Positions 12,134 to 50,987 of a stretch of 64,000 nt of DNA are shown in pieces. The stretch covers positions 1 through 64,000 of the forward strand of contig JABUMY010000021.1 in the NCBI GenBank assembly GCA_013327885.1, read 5' to 3'. Both the position numbers and the translations under genes were made by a program. This stretch comes from Flavisolibacter longurius. GTDB lineage: Bacteria; Bacteroidota; Bacteroidia; Chitinophagales; Chitinophagaceae. The notes below the pieces were generated by a model, which saw only the letters and a program-made list of their open reading frames with translations, did no database searches and was not told the origin of the DNA. Numbering within the stretch: position 1 is the stretch's first letter; each line of letters begins with the position of its first letter.

Positions 12134-12270
12134 GCTCCAGAACTATTTTGGCCTAATTTCAATTCCGTCCAGGACAACCCGCAGTCTCCCCGTGAATGGT
12201 AAATAGATGGTAAAGGGTTAGTAAAGGTTTTTGACGGAAACAGCTTGTACTAGTGGTACTTGCGCCAAAG

Positions 12271-12316
12271 CCTTCTCTGCGAAACCCTCCGTTTCTCCCG
12301 TTCTCTGCGGTTATTA
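12271..12316. repeat. CTCTGCG word repeat upstream of the Lhr gene
   Basis: Imperfect repetition of a CTCTGCG/CTCC unit (TTCTCTGCGAAACCCTCCG ... GTTCTCTGCGG) immediately upstream of the presumed promoter region. It resembles short intergenic word repeats familiar from Bacteroidota and cyanobacteria. Confidence 0.55.
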
Positions 12317-12349
12317 AAACAGGCGTATCCTTTTGTAGATTTACACAGC

Positions 12350-15076
12350 ATGGCGGACCTGAAAAGATCAAGTGGTTACAAGGTGGTGAAAGCGTGGTTG
12401 AACAGCAAGGGTTACCAGCCCTTTGCTTACCAGGAAGAAGCCTGGCAGCATATCATTAACGGACGGAGTGGTTTGGTGAATGCACCCACCGGTACCGGTA
12501 AAACCTTTTCCGTTTTTCTCGGCAGCATCATTCAATTTATTAACCAGCATCCAAAAGATTATAACCGCAAGGCCAAAAACGGCTTGCAGCTTATCTGGAT
12601 CACACCGCTGCGGGCTCTGGCCAAGGACATTGGCCGGGCCATGGAAGAAGTCATTTTTGAGCTGGACCTGCAATGGCGGGTGGGCATCCGTAACGGCGAT
12701 ACCTCGCTCTCCGAACGGCAAAAGCAAAAGCGGCAAATGCCCGAAGTGCTCATCATCACTCCCGAAAGCATGCACCTGCTGCTCTCGCAAAAAGGCGCCG
12801 CCGACATTTTCAAAACCCTAAAACTGATCGCTGCCGATGAATGGCATGAACTGATGGGCAGCAAACGGGGTGTGCTCATTGAACTGGCTTTAAGCCGGAT
12901 CGTTGGAGGGGCCCCCTCCCGCTCCCCCGGTGGGGGAGTGACCCTAGCACAGCCCTCGCCTGGCGGAGAGCCTGCAAATCAAAAGAAATCTTCGAAAAGC
13001 GGGGCTAGTGTGGTTGGTGGCCCTTCCCACCGGGAAGGGTCGGGGATGGGCCGCCTTGCCATCTGGGGCATCTCCGCTACCATCGGTAACTTAGAAGAAG
13101 CGATGAATGTGCTGCTTTCACCGCTTGCGCTGCTGGAGCAAAATGAGCCCGGTGTTATCGTCAAAGCGAACCTCTCCAAAAGCCTGGAAGTACTTTCCGT
13201 TCTCCCCGACGAGATTGAAAAATACCCTTGGGCCGGGCACCTGGGTATCAAGCTAGCGCACAAGATACTGCCCATTATCGATGAGAGCCGCACCACGCTT
13301 ATTTTTATCAATACCCGCGGTATGAGTGAGCTCTGGTACCAAACCCTCCTGAACATTGCGCCACATCTTGCCGGCGCCATTGCCCTGCACCACGGCAGCA
13401 TCGAAATGGAACTGCGCACCTGGGTAGAAGAGGCATTGCACGAAGGAAAATTAAAAGCTGTTGTTTGTACCGCCAGCCTTGATTTGGGCGTAGACTTCCG
13501 ACCGGTGGAAACCGTTATCCAGGTGGGTTCACCCAAAGGCGTGGCCCGCTTCCTGCAGCGGGCCGGTCGTAGCGGGCACAGTCCGGATGCGACCAGCCGC
13601 ATTTATTTTTTGCCCACGCATTCGCTGGAACTGATTGAAGCGGCGGCACTGAAAACCGCCATTGACGAACAGTTCATTGAAAGCCGCGAGCCTCTCCTGC
13701 TTTGTTACGATGTGCTGGTGCAATACCTCTGTACCCTTGCCTGCGGCGATGGCTTTGTGCCGGCTGTCATCTGGAAAGAAGTTAAAGCCACCAACTGCTA
13801 TACCGACCTGACGGAAGACGAATGGGCCGAAATGCTCTATTTCATTACGTCGGGGGGCAATGCCCTGCAGCAATACGATGAATACAAAAAAGTGGAGATC
13901 GAAGGCGGCGTGTACAAGATCAACAGCCGCCGCATTGCCATGCGCCACCGCCTGCACATCGGCACCATCGTCAGCGATGCCATGGTGAAGGTGAAGTTCC
14001 TTGGTGGCGGCTATATCGGCATCATTGAAGAATATTTTATTTCCCGCCTTGATGTTGGCGATGCGTTTACCCTCGCCGGCCGGCAACTGGAACTGGTGGC
14101 CATCAAGGACATGACCGTTATCGCCAAAAAATCATCGGCTAAAAAATCGGCCATCCCAAGTTGGCTCGGTGGTCGACTGCCCCTTTCGGCCAGTATGGGA
14201 AAAGTGTTGCGGCGCATGGTGGACGTGGCGAGTGGTGAGGCGGCAATGGGCAATAGCCAACAGGCAATAAGCGATGGGCAAACCGTAACAGGTAAAAAGC
14301 AAAAGACAAAAGAAAAAAAGCCACTGACCGGAACAGCATTGCCAATTGCCCATCGCCAATTGCCCATTGAACTGGAGGTGCTGCAACCGCTGTTCAGCCT
14401 GCAACAGGAACTTTCGCACTTGCCAAAAGAAAAAGAATTGCTGATCGAGCAGATCGAGACCCGCGATGGCTTTCACCTTTTTGTTTATCCCTTTGAAGGG
14501 CGACTGGTACATGAAGCGATGGCAGCGCTGCTGGCCTGGCGTATTTCCCGCATCATGCCCATTACGTTTTCCATTGCCATGAACGATTACGGCTTTGAGC
14601 TGCTGAGCGACCAGCCCATTCCTGTCGATGACAGCAATGTGTACGAACTGTTTTCGCCCCAAAACCTGATGGAAGACATCCAGCGCAGCGTCAATGCCAC
14701 GGAGATGGCTAAACGTAAATTTCGTGACATTGCCGTCATTGGCGGATTGATCTTCCAGGGTTTTCCCGGCGAATACAAAAAAGCAAGGCACCTGCAGGCA
14801 TCTGCCGGCTTATTGTTCAATGTCTTTAATGAATACGATGCCAGCAATGTGCTCATCCGCCAGGCCTACCAGGAGGTTTTCGACCAACAGATGGAAGAAG
14901 CCCGCCTACGGGAAATGCTGCAAAGGGTGCAGGAATCGAGGATCGTGTTGACCTTCCCGGAGCGGTTAACGCCGTTCTGTTTTCCCATTAAAGTGGACAG
15001 CCTGCGGGAAAGTCTTACGTCCGAAAAACTGGCCGACCGGGTGCGTCGTATGCAGGAGCAATTGAACAACGCGTAG
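12350..15076 (+). CDS. Lhr-type ligase-associated DNA repair DEXH-box helicase
   Basis: A 908-residue superfamily 2 helicase. Walker A is APTGTGKT at 45-52; motif II is DEWH at 163-166; ISATIGNLEEA follows as motif III; FLQRAGRSGHSPD is motif VI; the C-terminal winged-helix and beta-barrel part completes the Lhr core. ATG 12350 was chosen because homology-like sequence begins only there, although the frame stays open to 12260. The usual length is about 810-820 residues. The excess is explained by two low-complexity in-frame inserts: residues ~185-234, between motif II and the SAT motif, and residues ~633-673. Both are encoded by palindromic repeat DNA. The phosphoesterase partner is next, 163 bp downstream. 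An imperfect -7 box (TATCCTTTTG) lies at 12326. Confidence 0.92.
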   Translation: MADLKRSSGYKVVKAWLNSKGYQPFAYQEEAWQHIINGRSGLVNAPTGTGKTFSVFLGSIIQFINQHPKDYNRKAKNGLQLIWITPLRALAKDIGRAMEEVIFELDLQWRVGIRNGDTSLSERQKQKRQMPEVLIITPESMHLLLSQKGAADIFKTLKLIAADEWHELMGSKRGVLIELALSRIVGGAPSRSPGGGVTLAQPSPGGEPANQKKSSKSGASVVGGPSHREGSGMGRLAIWGISATIGNLEEAMNVLLSPLALLEQNEPGVIVKANLSKSLEVLSVLPDEIEKYPWAGHLGIKLAHKILPIIDESRTTLIFINTRGMSELWYQTLLNIAPHLAGAIALHHGSIEMELRTWVEEALHEGKLKAVVCTASLDLGVDFRPVETVIQVGSPKGVARFLQRAGRSGHSPDATSRIYFLPTHSLELIEAAALKTAIDEQFIESREPLLLCYDVLVQYLCTLACGDGFVPAVIWKEVKATNCYTDLTEDEWAEMLYFITSGGNALQQYDEYKKVEIEGGVYKINSRRIAMRHRLHIGTIVSDAMVKVKFLGGGYIGIIEEYFISRLDVGDAFTLAGRQLELVAIKDMTVIAKKSSAKKSAIPSWLGGRLPLSASMGKVLRRMVDVASGEAAMGNSQQAISDGQTVTGKKQKTKEKKPLTGTALPIAHRQLPIELEVLQPLFSLQQELSHLPKEKELLIEQIETRDGFHLFVYPFEGRLVHEAMAALLAWRISRIMPITFSIAMNDYGFELLSDQPIPVDDSNVYELFSPQNLMEDIQRSVNATEMAKRKFRDIAVIGGLIFQGFPGEYKKARHLQASAGLLFNVFNEYDASNVLIRQAYQEVFDQQMEEARLREMLQRVQESRIVLTFPERLTPFCFPIKVDSLRESLTSEKLADRVRRMQEQLNNA
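12907..13053. repeat. Palindromic repeat element inserted in frame in lhr
   Basis: A 147-bp (49-codon) G/C-rich block. Its left arm holds CTCCCGCTCCCCCGGTGGGG and its right arm, in inverted orientation, CTTCCCACCGGGAAGGGTCG. Bases 12910-12960 match the reverse complement of 26654-26704 at about 44 of 51 positions. It encodes a Gly/Pro/Ser-rich linker that splits the otherwise conserved segment between LALSRI and LAIWGISATIG. Confidence 0.85.
14241..14369. repeat. GGGCAATA word-repeat element inside lhr
   Basis: The left arm (14241-14282) has several copies of a GGCAATGGGCAATAGCC-like unit. The right arm (14338-14369) has the inverted unit ATTGCCAATTGCCCATCGCC. The core between them is A-rich (AAAAGCAAAAGACAAAAG). 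It is translated in frame as a 41-residue linker (from M633) with no similarity to the surrounding Lhr domain. The architecture equals that of the intergenic word-repeat elements in this window. Confidence 0.8.
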
Positions 15077-15890: not shown

Positions 15891-16810
15891 ACTGCACCGG
15901 GAAACTTCACATTGCCTTTGATCCTATCTATGCGCATCCGTTGCCGGAAGGGCACCGCTTTCCCATGCTGAAGTATGAGCTGATCCCGCAGCAATTGCTT
16001 TACGAAGGTGTGATTAGTGAAGACGCTTTGTTTTCGCCCGGGCCTTGTCCCGATGCTATTGTGTTGCTGACGCATACCGCTGACTACCTCCAAAAGCTGA
16101 AGGCCCAAACCCTCACCGCCAGCGAACAGCGGCGCATCGGTTTTCCGCAATCACCGCAATTAACCCAACGCGAACTGATCATCACGCAAGGCACCATCAA
16201 CTGCTGCTTTCATGCGATGGAAAACGGTGTTGCGCTGAATGTGGCCGGCGGCACCCACCATGCCTTTGCCGACAGGGGCGAAGGCTTTTGCCTCTTAAAT
16301 GATTTCGCCGTCGCGGCAAATTTTTTACTTCACAAAAGGCTGGCGAAAAAGATCTTTGTCATTGACCTGGATGTGCACCAGGGAAACGGCACGGCAAAAA
16401 TCTTCGAAAGCGATGACCGCGTATTCACCTTCAGCATGCACGGCCGCAACAACTATCCTTTTCACAAGGAAAAAAGCGACCTGGATGTTGAATTGCTGGA
16501 TGGCACCACCAATCAAACGTACTTACAATTATTAACCACGCATCTTCCCACCTTGCTTCAAACGGTGAAGCCTGATATTGCTTTTTATCTCTCCGGTGTG
16601 GACATACTGGAAACCGATAAATTCGGGAAACTGAAAGTCACTATCGGTGGTTGCCGCGAACGGGACCGCATTGTTTTCTCTTTACTAAAGGCAGCCAACA
16701 CTCCCTGCGTAGTGGCCATGGGCGGCGGCTATTCGCCCCAGGTAAAAACAATTGTAGAAGCGCACTGTAATACCTTCAAACTGGCAAAGGAAATTTGGGA
16801 GTTGGAATGA
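15887..16810 (+). CDS. Histone-deacetylase-family (acetoin utilisation-like) deacetylase
   Basis: A 307-residue zinc-dependent deacetylase fold. The catalytic His pair H124-H125 lies in GGTHHAFADRGEGFCLLND. The zinc-binding motif is D160-L-D162-V-H164 (DLDVHQGNGTA). SGVDILETDKFGKL and MGGGY complete the signature. Bacterial members deacetylate polyamines, acetyl-lysine or small amides; the substrate is unknown here. It overlaps pdeM by 4 bp and is therefore in the repair operon. The stop codon is followed at once by a word repeat. Confidence 0.9.
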   Translation: MNCTGKLHIAFDPIYAHPLPEGHRFPMLKYELIPQQLLYEGVISEDALFSPGPCPDAIVLLTHTADYLQKLKAQTLTASEQRRIGFPQSPQLTQRELIITQGTINCCFHAMENGVALNVAGGTHHAFADRGEGFCLLNDFAVAANFLLHKRLAKKIFVIDLDVHQGNGTAKIFESDDRVFTFSMHGRNNYPFHKEKSDLDVELLDGTTNQTYLQLLTTHLPTLLQTVKPDIAFYLSGVDILETDKFGKLKVTIGGCRERDRIVFSLLKAANTPCVVAMGGGYSPQVKTIVEAHCNTFKLAKEIWELE

Positions 16811-16847
16811 GCTGCAAGCTGTGAGCCGTGAGCTTTGAGCTGAGAGC
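16807..16847. repeat. GTGAGCT word repeat touching the deacetylase stop codon
   Basis: Six imperfect copies of a GAGCTGTGAGC-like unit (GAGCTGCAAGCTGTGAGCC ... GCTTTGAGCTGAGAGC) that starts at the TGA stop codon of the deacetylase gene. Confidence 0.75.
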
Positions 16848-16870
16848 ATTTGTTGGCAGGTAGCGAATGC

Positions 16871-16902
16871 AATATCTCAATATCAAAATATCCTAATTTC
16901 CT
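16871..16902. repeat. ATATCC-type repeat beyond the DUF5916 gene
   Basis: AATATCTCAATATCAAAATA followed by TCCTAATTTCC, four bases from the 3' end of the minus-strand gene at 16906. Read on the minus strand it is a GGATATTTTGATATTGAGAT-type repeat. Related copies lie at 47288-47322 and 54546-54572, each again at the 3' end of a minus-strand gene. Confidence 0.7.
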
Positions 16903-20239: not shown

Positions 20240-20278
20240 GCACTAATAATTTTAGCCGCAAAATACTAATTTATTTAG

Positions 20279-20417
20279 AAATGGTGAGTGGTGAATGGTG
20301 AGTGGTGAGTTTTTTCTGTCATTTTTTTTTTGAAATAAAATTCGGTTTGGTTGTCCGGGAAGAAATCCGAGAAAAAAGATTCTCCTACTGACTACTGACC
20401 ACTCACCAATCACCATT
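20279..20417. repeat. GGTGAGT word-repeat element with inverted arms
   Basis: The left arm AATGGTGAGTGGTGAATGGT (20279-20310) is inverted relative to the right arm, which ends CACTCACCAATCACCATT (20384-20417). The T- and A-rich core is about 73 bp. It fills most of the gap between the divergent S24 regulator and surE genes. Confidence 0.8.
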
Positions 20418-20470
20418 TGGTTTTCCGTTATTTCTGGTACAAATTTGCAAATAGCATAAATTAAATACGA

Positions 20471-21540: not shown

Positions 21541-21706
21541 GAACAGAAGGATACTGAACAAGGAATCTTGAATGCCGAAGTAACTTATTCTGCATGCTTT
21601 GCAACTTTCCGCCAGTATTCAATGAAAAAAATTGAATAAAGGATATCCACTTCACCGATCCTTGTTCATTTTTCGTCTGTTCGATATTCATTCCCTCTAT
21701 CTTTAC
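21541..21706. repeat. GAACAAGGA word-repeat element before lpxB
   Basis: The left arm (GAACAGAAGGATACTGAACA, about 21541-21585) is inverted relative to the right arm (GATCCTTGTTCATTTTTCGT and TTCGATATTCATTCC, about 21650-21695). It fills the whole gap between the small membrane gene and lpxB and includes the likely lpxB promoter. Confidence 0.7.
21698..21705 (+). promoter_or_regulatory. Possible -7 box of lpxB
   Basis: TATCTTTA differs from the Bacteroidota -7 consensus TAnnTTTG only in the last base and lies 6 bp before the ATG. This would give a leaderless or very short leader mRNA, which makes the assignment uncertain. Confidence 0.3.
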
Positions 21707-23083: not shown

Positions 23084-23203
23084 TGTGAAAACGTGAGACG
23101 TTAGACGTCAAACGAGAGACGTGAGACGAGAAACGTGCTTTCTGATCAAACAGGCTGCCCTGTTTCACGTTTGACTTCTCACGCCTGTCGTCTCCCGTTC
23201 ACG
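23084..23203. repeat. GTGAGACG word-repeat element with inverted arms
   Basis: The left arm (23084-23137) repeats a CGTGAGACGTTAGACGTC-like unit. The right arm (23161-23203) holds the inverse TTTCACGTTTGACTTCTCAC and CGTCTCCCGTTCACG. The core is 23 bp. Confidence 0.8.
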
Positions 23204-26653: not shown

Positions 26654-26704
26654 GGCAGGGGCTGTGCCTGGCTCACTCCCCCACCGGGGGAGCCGGAGGG
26701 GGCT
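26654..26704. repeat. Palindromic G/C repeat touching a stop codon
   Basis: Contains CACTCCCCCACCGGGGGAG and CCGGAGGGGG. The reverse complement matches 12910-12960 inside lhr at about 44 of 51 positions. It ends at 26704, exactly one base before the stop codon (26705-26707) of the giant T9SS substrate. The hairpin would lie in the mRNA between that gene and the downstream PorP/SprF gene. Confidence 0.85.
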
Positions 26705-47205: not shown

Positions 47206-47247
47206 GGTGGTGAATGGCGAGTAGTAAGTAGCCAGTAGCTAGTAGTT
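47206..47247. repeat. AGTAGC word repeat at the reductase stop codon
   Basis: Imperfect repeats of an AGTAGTAAGTAGCCAGTAGC-like unit preceded by GGTGGTGAATGGCG, beginning directly after the reductase stop codon. Confidence 0.72.
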
Positions 47248-47287
47248 TGCAGCAAGTGGTACGCAGCTCCGTGCATACTTACTGTCC

Positions 47288-47322
47288 AATAATCAATAAT
47301 CGATATCCTAATATCCTATTTC
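47288..47322. repeat. ATATCC-type repeat at the end of the DUF421 gene
   Basis: AATAATCAATAATCGATATC followed by CTAATATCCTATTTCC, ending 7 bp from the 3' end of the minus-strand DUF421 gene. Same family and placement as 16871-16902. Confidence 0.72.
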
Positions 47323-50134: not shown

Positions 50135-50941
50135 ATGGCAGCTACAACAAACAACCGGTATGCGCTTATCACCGGCGGAACACAGGGCATTGGCTATGAA
50201 CTGGCAAAGCTATTTGCCGGCGACGGCTACAACCTTATTTTGGTTGCCCGCACAGAAGAGGACCTGCAGCAACGCAGGCAGGAGTTTTCGCAGCAGTATG
50301 GCATAGAGGTAGTAACCCTTGCCAAAGACCTGTTTCAACCCAATGCCCCGTTTGAAGTGTACAATGATGTGCAAAGCAAAAACCTGGTGGTGGATGTGTT
50401 GGTGAATGATGCCGGGCAGGGCCAGTTTGGTCTTTTTGTGGAGCAGGATATCCAGCGCCTGCAGGAGATCATTCAGCTTAACATCAATGCGCTGACGGTG
50501 CTCACGCATTTATTTCTAAAAGACATGGTGGCCCGCAACGAAGGCAAGATCCTGCAATTGGCATCCATTGCCTCGCAGTTGCCCGGTCCCTGGCAAGCGG
50601 TGTACCATGCCACCAAGGCCTATGTGCTTTCGTTTACCGAAGCCCTGGTGAGTGAGTTGAAAGATTCGGCGGTAACACTGACAGCACTCCAGCCCGGCGC
50701 TACCGATACCGACTTTTTCAACAAAGCAGAGATGCAGGAATCTAAGATTTTGGATACCAAACTGTCGGACCCGGCAAAGGTGGCAAAAGACGGTTACGAA
50801 GCCCTGATGAGCGGTGACGATAAGATCGTTTCGGGCTTTAAGAACAAAGCCATGGTAGGCATGAGCAACGTGATGCCCGAATCGATGGTGGCTGACCAGA
50901 TGAACAAAATGCAGCAGCCGAGAGAGGAGGGAAAGAAGTAG
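50135..50941 (+). CDS. SDR-family NAD(P)-dependent oxidoreductase
   Basis: 268 residues, classical short-chain dehydrogenase. Cofactor motif ALITGGTQGIGYELAKLF; NDAGQGQFG; catalytic Ser-Tyr-Lys in LASIASQLPGPWQAVYHATK (Y-x3-K); PGATDTDF after it. ARTEEDL at the end of beta-2 suggests NADP. Many SDRs of this DltE/YqjQ-like branch accompany stress genes. The stop codon TAG is part of a GTAGGCA word repeat. Confidence 0.92.
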   Translation: MAATTNNRYALITGGTQGIGYELAKLFAGDGYNLILVARTEEDLQQRRQEFSQQYGIEVVTLAKDLFQPNAPFEVYNDVQSKNLVVDVLVNDAGQGQFGLFVEQDIQRLQEIIQLNINALTVLTHLFLKDMVARNEGKILQLASIASQLPGPWQAVYHATKAYVLSFTEALVSELKDSAVTLTALQPGATDTDFFNKAEMQESKILDTKLSDPAKVAKDGYEALMSGDDKIVSGFKNKAMVGMSNVMPESMVADQMNKMQQPREEGKK

Positions 50942-50970
50942 GCAGTAAGCAGTAGGCAGTAGGTAGTAGC
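50938..50970. repeat. AGTAGGC word repeat incorporating the SDR stop codon
   Basis: GTAGGCAGTAAGCAGTAGGC followed by AGTAGGTAGTAGC: about five imperfect copies of a 7-bp unit. The first TAG is the stop codon of the SDR gene. Confidence 0.8.
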
Positions 50971-50987
50971 AATCGAATGATACTCGT

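Follow-up and report, generated by a model that had tools for sequence, protein, structure and literature searches.

Paired arrays of a 7-base word read in frame within an lhr-type helicase gene of Flavisolibacter longurius: a member of a large class of interspersed hairpins?

How does inverted, tandemly repeated DNA of the kind that lies between genes come to be read in frame inside a helicase? The question is raised by positions 14242-14369 of a stretch of 64,000 nucleotides (nt), hereafter the window, from Flavisolibacter longurius (assembly GCA_013327885.1, contig JABUMY010000021.1, positions 1 to 64,000), where the lhr-type gene of a ligase-associated DEXH-box helicase contains a two-armed element of period 7. 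We consider it probable, at roughly 0.6, that this element belongs to a large class of interspersed hairpins in which each arm is a short array of the same 7-base word and the two arms run in opposite directions toward a unique core. Below, G000 is the genome containing the window, C22 is another contig of G000, and G001 and the like are the genomes of relatives.

The longest open reading frame (ORF) around the element spans 12260-15076 on the plus strand, with a TTG start at 12260, and encodes 938 amino acids. Since residue 30-34 of this long ORF is about where the match of most relatives begins, the probable start of the gene is the ATG at 12350 (gene 12350-15076, +). The ORF scored 1057.9 bits against TIGR04121, "ligase-associated DNA damage response DEXH box helicase" (cut-off 850), and the element is located between its Pfam domains WH_Lhr (467-631) and DEAD_assoc (721-907). 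With the unit RGCAATN, the left arm (14242-14281, +) reads GGCAATG, GGCAATA, GCCAACA, GGCAATA, AGCGATG and GGCAA; it is followed by an A-rich core (14282-14336, +), lysine-rich in translation, and by a right arm (14337-14369, +) made of ATTGCCA and CATCGCC units. Over 33 nt, the inverted arms 14244-14276 and 14337-14369 are 76% complementary, with the 7-nt unit GGCAATA in one and ATTGCCA in the other, and the stems pair 14244-14254 with 14359-14369 and 14271-14281 with 14346-14356. The predicted RNA fold reaches -41.1 kcal/mol, with z-scores of -4.33 on the plus and -4.35 on the minus strand, and 0 of 200 shuffles folded as well on either strand.

These results bear out an earlier note on this DNA, which had placed a repeat element here and had it read in frame inside an Lhr-type helicase. 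The note had also described a 41-residue linker whose arms start and stop close to codon boundaries. Both details have to be corrected: the 129 nt in question make 43 codons, the arm ends 14244 and 14369 are second and first codon positions, and the 7-nt unit passes through all reading frames. Judging from the frame and from its stops, the element is probably translated, and its product would be a flexible, weakly constrained linker rather than a functional protein domain. Between G000 and G006, its ratio of nonsynonymous to synonymous substitution rates (dN/dS) was 0.36 over 43 codons, compared with 0.01-0.05 in the helicase domains.

Arrays of period 7 are frequent elsewhere in this genome. 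In 400 kb of C22 we counted 71 period-7 arrays (15 of 21 matches), and lag 14 gave 61, against 4, 10, 3, 2 and 4 at lags 5, 9, 10, 11 and 13; lags 6, 8, 12 and 15 gave 31, 22, 17 and 15. Together, C22 and the window hold 60 clusters in 464 kb. G000 has several word families and no single dominant one, the words that recur across its loci being GCAAT, GCAGT, GGTGA, ACGT-type words, AAACG and AGCT. The genome search for the arm unit that had been suggested earlier was positive, with 126 matches to GGCAATNGGCAATNG (at most one mismatch) in G000 versus 19 for the reversed pattern. Among 81 stricter arrays, 28 had an inverted partner of the same word within 200 nt, while a mean of 5.45 was obtained with words shuffled among arrays; same-direction partners were at chance (6 vs 5.6), and the complement-only control gave 8. 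Furthermore, the two most variable columns of the unit were neighbours more often than expected: distances of 1, 2 and 3 stood at 37:25:14 in the genus sample and at 172:102:62 in other loci, where equal numbers are expected.

For two words, the arms are not only inverted but also oriented. An outward arrangement of the arms would fold equally well. In exact searches of 22 genomes, the inward GCAAT arrangement GCAATNNGCAAT...ATTGCNNATTGC (gap 40-70) gave 27 matches in 8 genomes, 19 of them distinct by our own count (elements of G000 and G006 among them may be orthologous), whereas the outward ATTGCNNATTGC...GCAATNNGCAAT gave 0. Likewise, for GGTGA (gap 45-75) the 20 genomes searched gave 6 inward matches (5 distinct elements, spread over 4 genomes) and 0 outward ones. 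These two words, GCAAT and GGTGA, thus show a strong inward polarity. By a looser test that ignores the word, the left arm was purine-rich in 22 of 25 genus-sample elements and in 48 of 68 elements of other loci, a set that omits many GCAAT words.

We then have the same site in related species. Thirty lhr ORFs were aligned; they are the 30 best matches among 58 genomes, of which 54 had some helicase match. Linker 2, the site of the lhr element, is short in most of them and long in a supported clade of five species, which shows four different states there with differing peptides. G000 and G006 have GCAAT arms, G007 has GCAAT/GCAGT arrays running in a single direction, G009 has AAACGG-like units, and G003, judged by eye, has CCAAC-like ones. 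Among the other 25 rows, G001 (L025) and G028 (L027) carry the palindrome CCCGATAGCTATCGGG, read in frame, and G010 has AAAAGTN units. Linker 1 of other species holds arrays of TTCGAAG/AACATCG, CAACTNC, GGTCAAT/ACAAACC and GCTGCAA/AGCTCAT. The fold z-scores were -2.23 for the linker of G006, -2.78 for that of G007 and -4.41 for linker 1 of G001. The earlier note had proposed a DNA-level repeat of intergenic kind read in frame, and the hypervariable orthologous linkers, several of them with other heptamer words, agree with this. It had also suggested looking for an exact absence of the insert, and the alignment gave no clean absence, since the orthologous linkers differ throughout; nor did the orthologues carry a conserved linker over unrelated DNA.

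A stronger case is a second two-armed element of G000, read in frame in the tRNA 2-selenouridine synthase MnmH (C22:353842-353932, word GCAGT) directly before the rhodanese-domain motif YCWRGGMRS, where the protein has about 21 residues more than PDB 3g5j. MnmH matches were found in 21 of 32 genomes, and 18 were used (G001 being partial) after the short, weak matches of G005, G010 and G045 had been dropped. With 100 shuffles each, the loops of G000 (GCAGT), G006 (GCAAT) and G015 (AGATTGC) folded at z -6.56, -5.80 and -3.63, followed by G009 (GCAAT, -2.63), G011 (GCAGT, -2.33) and G003 (-2.00). The other 12 of the 18 loops lay above -2, including those of G007 (GCAAT, -1.50) and G001 (-0.75), and the loop is short in several relatives. 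Based on these folds and words, the word of both arms differs between sister species, with the site, the hairpin and the open frame retained. We argue for such a change of word at one site for the MnmH and Lhr loops only, and even there a loss followed by a new gain is possible; between genes the arrays are dense, so that some G000-G006 word differences may be independent gains.

Palindromic inserts are read in frame within the conserved genes lhr, MnmH and UvrA. In a Phycisphaerales contig, UvrA carries GGCAATN arms on either side of a purine-rich, lysine-rich core; it is about 45 residues longer there than PDB 2r6f, and the insert folds at z -6.54. Further in-frame arrays were seen in two RND pumps (of Segetibacter and Crocinitomicaceae), in TilS and in the AnmK of G003, as well as in the LeuRS of a Nitrospinae, which has short single arrays. 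A search for such arrays over the genus sample and the named loci returned 447 of them and 64 array-ORF hits, a count that includes spurious ORFs; 10 of the 64 were scanned against Pfam (8 with domains, 2 without family), as were four G000 ORFs, two of which had no family.

Stop triplets differ between the phases. In 15 in-gene ORFs with GCAAT/GCAGT-type arrays, we scored the triplet formed by the last base of the word and two spacer bases, and found stops at 0 of 26 in-frame and 28 of 60 out-of-frame positions. The openness of an ORF fixes the first number; it is from the second that stop triplets are seen to be common in the same arrays and excluded from one phase only. In other G000 arrays, a background set that includes the MnmH array, 81 of 298 triplets were stops. 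Within lhr itself, the in-frame triplet is CAG instead of TAG because the third unit is GCCAACA. The earlier idea of a spacer that is kept open is supported by this phase pattern. Its remark that no stop interrupts the frame also stands, as a single ORF spans the element, but such openness is nothing unusual: of 21 two-armed clusters, 15 have at least one open frame among the six. An intrinsic openness of the words was considered and rejected, the arrays being no more stop-free than their shuffles.

The words extend well beyond the genus. Of 396 genomes sampled from the class, 58 contain GCAATNNGCAATNNGCAAT; G000 has 49 matches, G003 has 36 and G157 has 174. The reversed control had none in these three but 10 in G280, 8 in G325 and 11 in G348. 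In named genomes the two-armed GCAAT design was found in at least 118 stretches; by our estimate, 257 billion bases of even composition would yield about 0.007 by chance. Among the matches listed are Chitinophagaceae, Niastella, Hymenobacter, Cyanobacteria, Victivallales, Clostridia, Acidobacteria, Planctomycetes, Mesorhizobium and others; contigs of metagenome-assembled genomes such as L204 are possibly misbinned. Other words likewise form inverted pairs in the named loci, which had been selected by the GCAAT pattern.

What kind of origin do these data favour? The inter-domain position of the element, and the lysine-rich cores of Lhr and UvrA, which resemble many linkers, might suggest an ordinary low-complexity protein linker whose DNA pattern is a by-product. 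Since 7 is not a multiple of 3, codon-level repeats cannot be the source of the period; moreover, both strands fold at z about -4.3 and the same words occur between genes, which refutes this view as a full explanation and leaves it hardly credible. A mobile element, of the type of a miniature inverted-repeat transposable element (MITE) or of a Rickettsia palindromic element (RPE), inserting as a unit also into genes, would fit the dispersed copies, the inverted arms, the in-frame insertions at permissive sites and the differences in presence and absence between G000 and G006. When 60 elements were compared all against all with arms masked, however, only 10 of 1770 pairs shared sequence at E 0.001, and 6 of these 10 were among four elements that also share flanks with another dispersed repeat. 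Because cores and flanks are so seldom in common, the elements are not copies of one transposing unit, and transposition of the whole unit was rejected; the earlier suggestion of a mobile repeat is not supported, words being what the elements share. Words also vary among copies and at orthologous sites, there are no common terminal inverted repeats as in a MITE, and the G000-G006 sites compared offered no clean empty site or target duplication. We hold a mobile element to be improbable. Spread by viruses was likewise not retained, with 0 matches in viral contigs, a weak result as the control word also gave 0.

The location of the arrays speaks for another view, in which the hairpins, in-gene copies included, are maintained for a function in RNA or DNA such as mRNA 3' stabilisation, termination or the binding of a protein to the 7-base word. 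In the 464 kb, 55 of 76 arrays were intergenic, compared with 13.5% of random positions (20 lay inside called ORFs and 1 at an edge), and 22 of 76 lay between convergent genes. Distances of 30 nt or less were found for 29 of 71 gene 3' ends versus 6 of 39 5' ends, and a quarter of the 71 array-to-3'-end distances were 5 nt or less; all these counts come from a crude gene caller. The persistence of a hairpin at one site while its words differ, the inward polarity of GCAAT and GGTGA and the excess of adjacent variable columns in the unit can be read in the same sense. On the other hand, mere tolerance would equally place arrays near 3' ends, an inward direction of the words is unnecessary for a hairpin to function, and some orthologous sites are empty in G006. 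Altogether, we regard maintenance for a function as unlikely.

Growth in place is suggested by the spacers. In 6 of 7 sets, neighbouring spacers were more alike than the pool, clearly so in four of them (G000, ES-bin-252, OAS944 and L120; the values for the clear sets, in no stated order, were 0.24 vs 0.10, 0.56 vs 0.31, 0.52 vs 0.23 and 0.30 vs 0.14) and slightly in two, while the order was reversed in RGIG3413 (0.29 vs 0.40). Likeness between neighbours is what slippage would give; a simple sequence repeat grown by slippage would nevertheless leave the inverted arms and their polarity unexplained. For a hairpin class of the kind favoured here, we envisage that the arms lengthen on site by slippage, that the second arm would arise via an inverted copying event on one strand, that words may be replaced or homogenised, and that in-gene copies would survive only in surface or inter-domain loops, where length and stops allow. 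Strand-specific, hairpin-primed copying or a word-binding protein are two ideas that might account for the second arm, the few dominant words and the inward direction.

Several results weigh against this reading. The arms of one element are not specially complementary to each other: in permutations among same-word arms, 1919 of 2000 were at least as good for 44 elements of nine genomes, and 1586 of 5000 for 11 elements of the genus. We saw no event of birth or growth, the aligned blocks of the nearest genome being mostly 72-92% identical, and slippage alone accounts for neither the shared vocabulary nor the polarity. The looser test brought exceptions to the polarity, 3 among the 25 genus-sample elements and 20 among the 68 from other loci; two of the former three resemble mis-pairings, and C22:85657 (AAACGG) appears real. 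Several in-gene heptamer linkers fold no better than shuffles (z about 0 in G003, G009, G015, G029 and G032), others fold weakly (G001 linker 2, z -1.20; G023, -1.56), and the dN/dS of the lhr element comes from only 43 codons. Two narrower ideas were dropped on the same data. The hairpin cannot be a necessary feature of in-gene copies, given the linkers with z about 0, and the copying of one arm from the other is unsupported by the permutations; the GCGATGGGCAA common to both lhr arms is not taken as evidence for it.

A bolder version would have a directional process write paired arms of 7-base words toward a unique core and be able to rewrite both arms with another word in place, even in conserved genes with the frame kept. 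As such a process would act in several phyla with an overlapping vocabulary, it would point to an enzyme or a word-binding protein that these phyla have in common, not to a mobile element, and the convergent GGGAATC pairs of Xanthomonas would be another of its products. We put this forward as a doubtful, though conceivable, extension.

The window contains other repeats of interest. Two intergenic two-armed elements, at 20277-20419 (word GGTGAGT, the same in G006 at this site) and 23087-23200 (ACGTGAG, with the same word family in G006), have the period-7 design, so that the likeness to the lhr element asserted for them earlier stands. It does not extend to the third one named, at 21541-21682, an intergenic inverted repeat (83% complementary, z -4.54) with no period-7 array detected, which lies outside the class by the test used. 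Single arrays are found at 16809-16849 (AGCTNNN, at the 3' end of the ORF ending at 16810), 47212-47254 (AGTAGCC, not found at the corresponding place in G006) and 50930-50974 (AGTAGGC, overlapping the stop codon of the ORF ending at 50941); the first and the last of these start at or across the stop codon of the upstream ORF. Octamer arrays, CAATATCA and ATATCCTA, stand beside heptamer arrays at 16870-16892 and 47303-47318, and lag 8 is in excess in C22 (22 vs 2-4 at lags 5, 10, 11 and 13), so that G000 may have a second period of 8.

The helicase gene has a second in-frame insert, in linker 1 (12908-13054, +; residues 217-265), which is a different dispersed palindrome and has a dN/dS of 1.03 over 47 codons between G000 and G006. 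This G/C-rich palindrome, CTCCCCCGGTGGGGGAG, is present at 71 places in G000 (33 + 38 matches with at most two mismatches; control 0), two of them in the window at 12922-12938, in frame in linker 1, and 26676-26692. Some two-armed clusters of C22 have different words in their two arms (170910-171044, 176023-176249 and 386684-386785), and the mixed pair at 176023 seems to be retained in G006. A dispersed repeat of about 370 bp (C22:197677-198050, equal to L060:17677-18050) has more than 10 copies in G006, mostly at 73-79% identity.

Mazel et al. are said to have described, in 1990, the short tandemly repeated repetitive (STRR) sequences of filamentous cyanobacteria. The lhr-type elements are probably of the same kind as these and as the paired GGGAATC arrays of Xanthomonas; words of 7 bases carry no phylogeny. 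STRR are described as 7-bp repeats, hairpin-capable and of unknown function (PMC2670836); 7-bp units and hairpins are found here too, and the GCAAT word also occurs at cyanobacterial loci, whereas in-frame copies in conserved genes and a change of word at one site set our elements apart from STRR as described there. For Xanthomonas, 70 and 75 GGGAATC array pairs are reported in two genomes, convergent, always one per strand and with stem-loop potential; these arrays are 89-93% intergenic and 7-11% intragenic, lie close to the ends of ORFs and have a unit with both conserved and variable positions, and 32% of the GGGGA(C/T)T arrays of Nostoc are not intergenic (PMC4692102). Our arrays are similarly dispersed, mainly intergenic and, like those reported for Xanthomonas, convergently paired. 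They differ from these one-word genomes, as portrayed there, in having many words, clear in-frame insertions in conserved proteins and a word difference at one orthologous in-gene site (PMC4692102).

Heptamer arrays read inside ORFs are also known from the TAACTGA repeats of Beggiatoaceae, some Cyanobacteria and five Bacteroidetes, whose "reverse" repeats lie within 11 ORFs, including an RNA polymerase beta-prime homologue, with stop codons named as a limit on orientation (PMC4679880). As described there, these are direct repeats of one word, with one inverted case, no predicted fold and mostly hypothetical proteins or protein ends as hosts (PMC4679880). RPEs resemble the inserts of lhr, MnmH and UvrA in being palindromes in frame in unrelated conserved genes at tolerated sites; as described, they form sequence families of about 150 bp with a conserved encoded peptide, whereas our copies seldom share a core, vary in word, have arms made of 7-base arrays and encode differing peptides at one site (PMC10969869, PMC6649704). 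The two-armed design, the inward (convergent) pairing and the copies in ORFs thus each have a precedent in these sources. In what we read of the literature we did not meet a genome with many words, an in-gene site whose word differs between species or a lack of stops limited to one phase; in open-licence papers we found no description of a word change in heptamer hairpins at one in-gene site.

The present data bear on the origin of heptamer arrays, whose convergent pairs and few in-ORF copies had been published before: one genome employs many words in a single two-armed design. With differing words in related species and the frame open, the two loops of Lhr and MnmH suggest that DNA without selection as protein may provide a route to new protein loops. 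Taken with the inward polarity, which is not predicted by hairpin formation alone, this makes the origin of the repeats testable by strain comparison.

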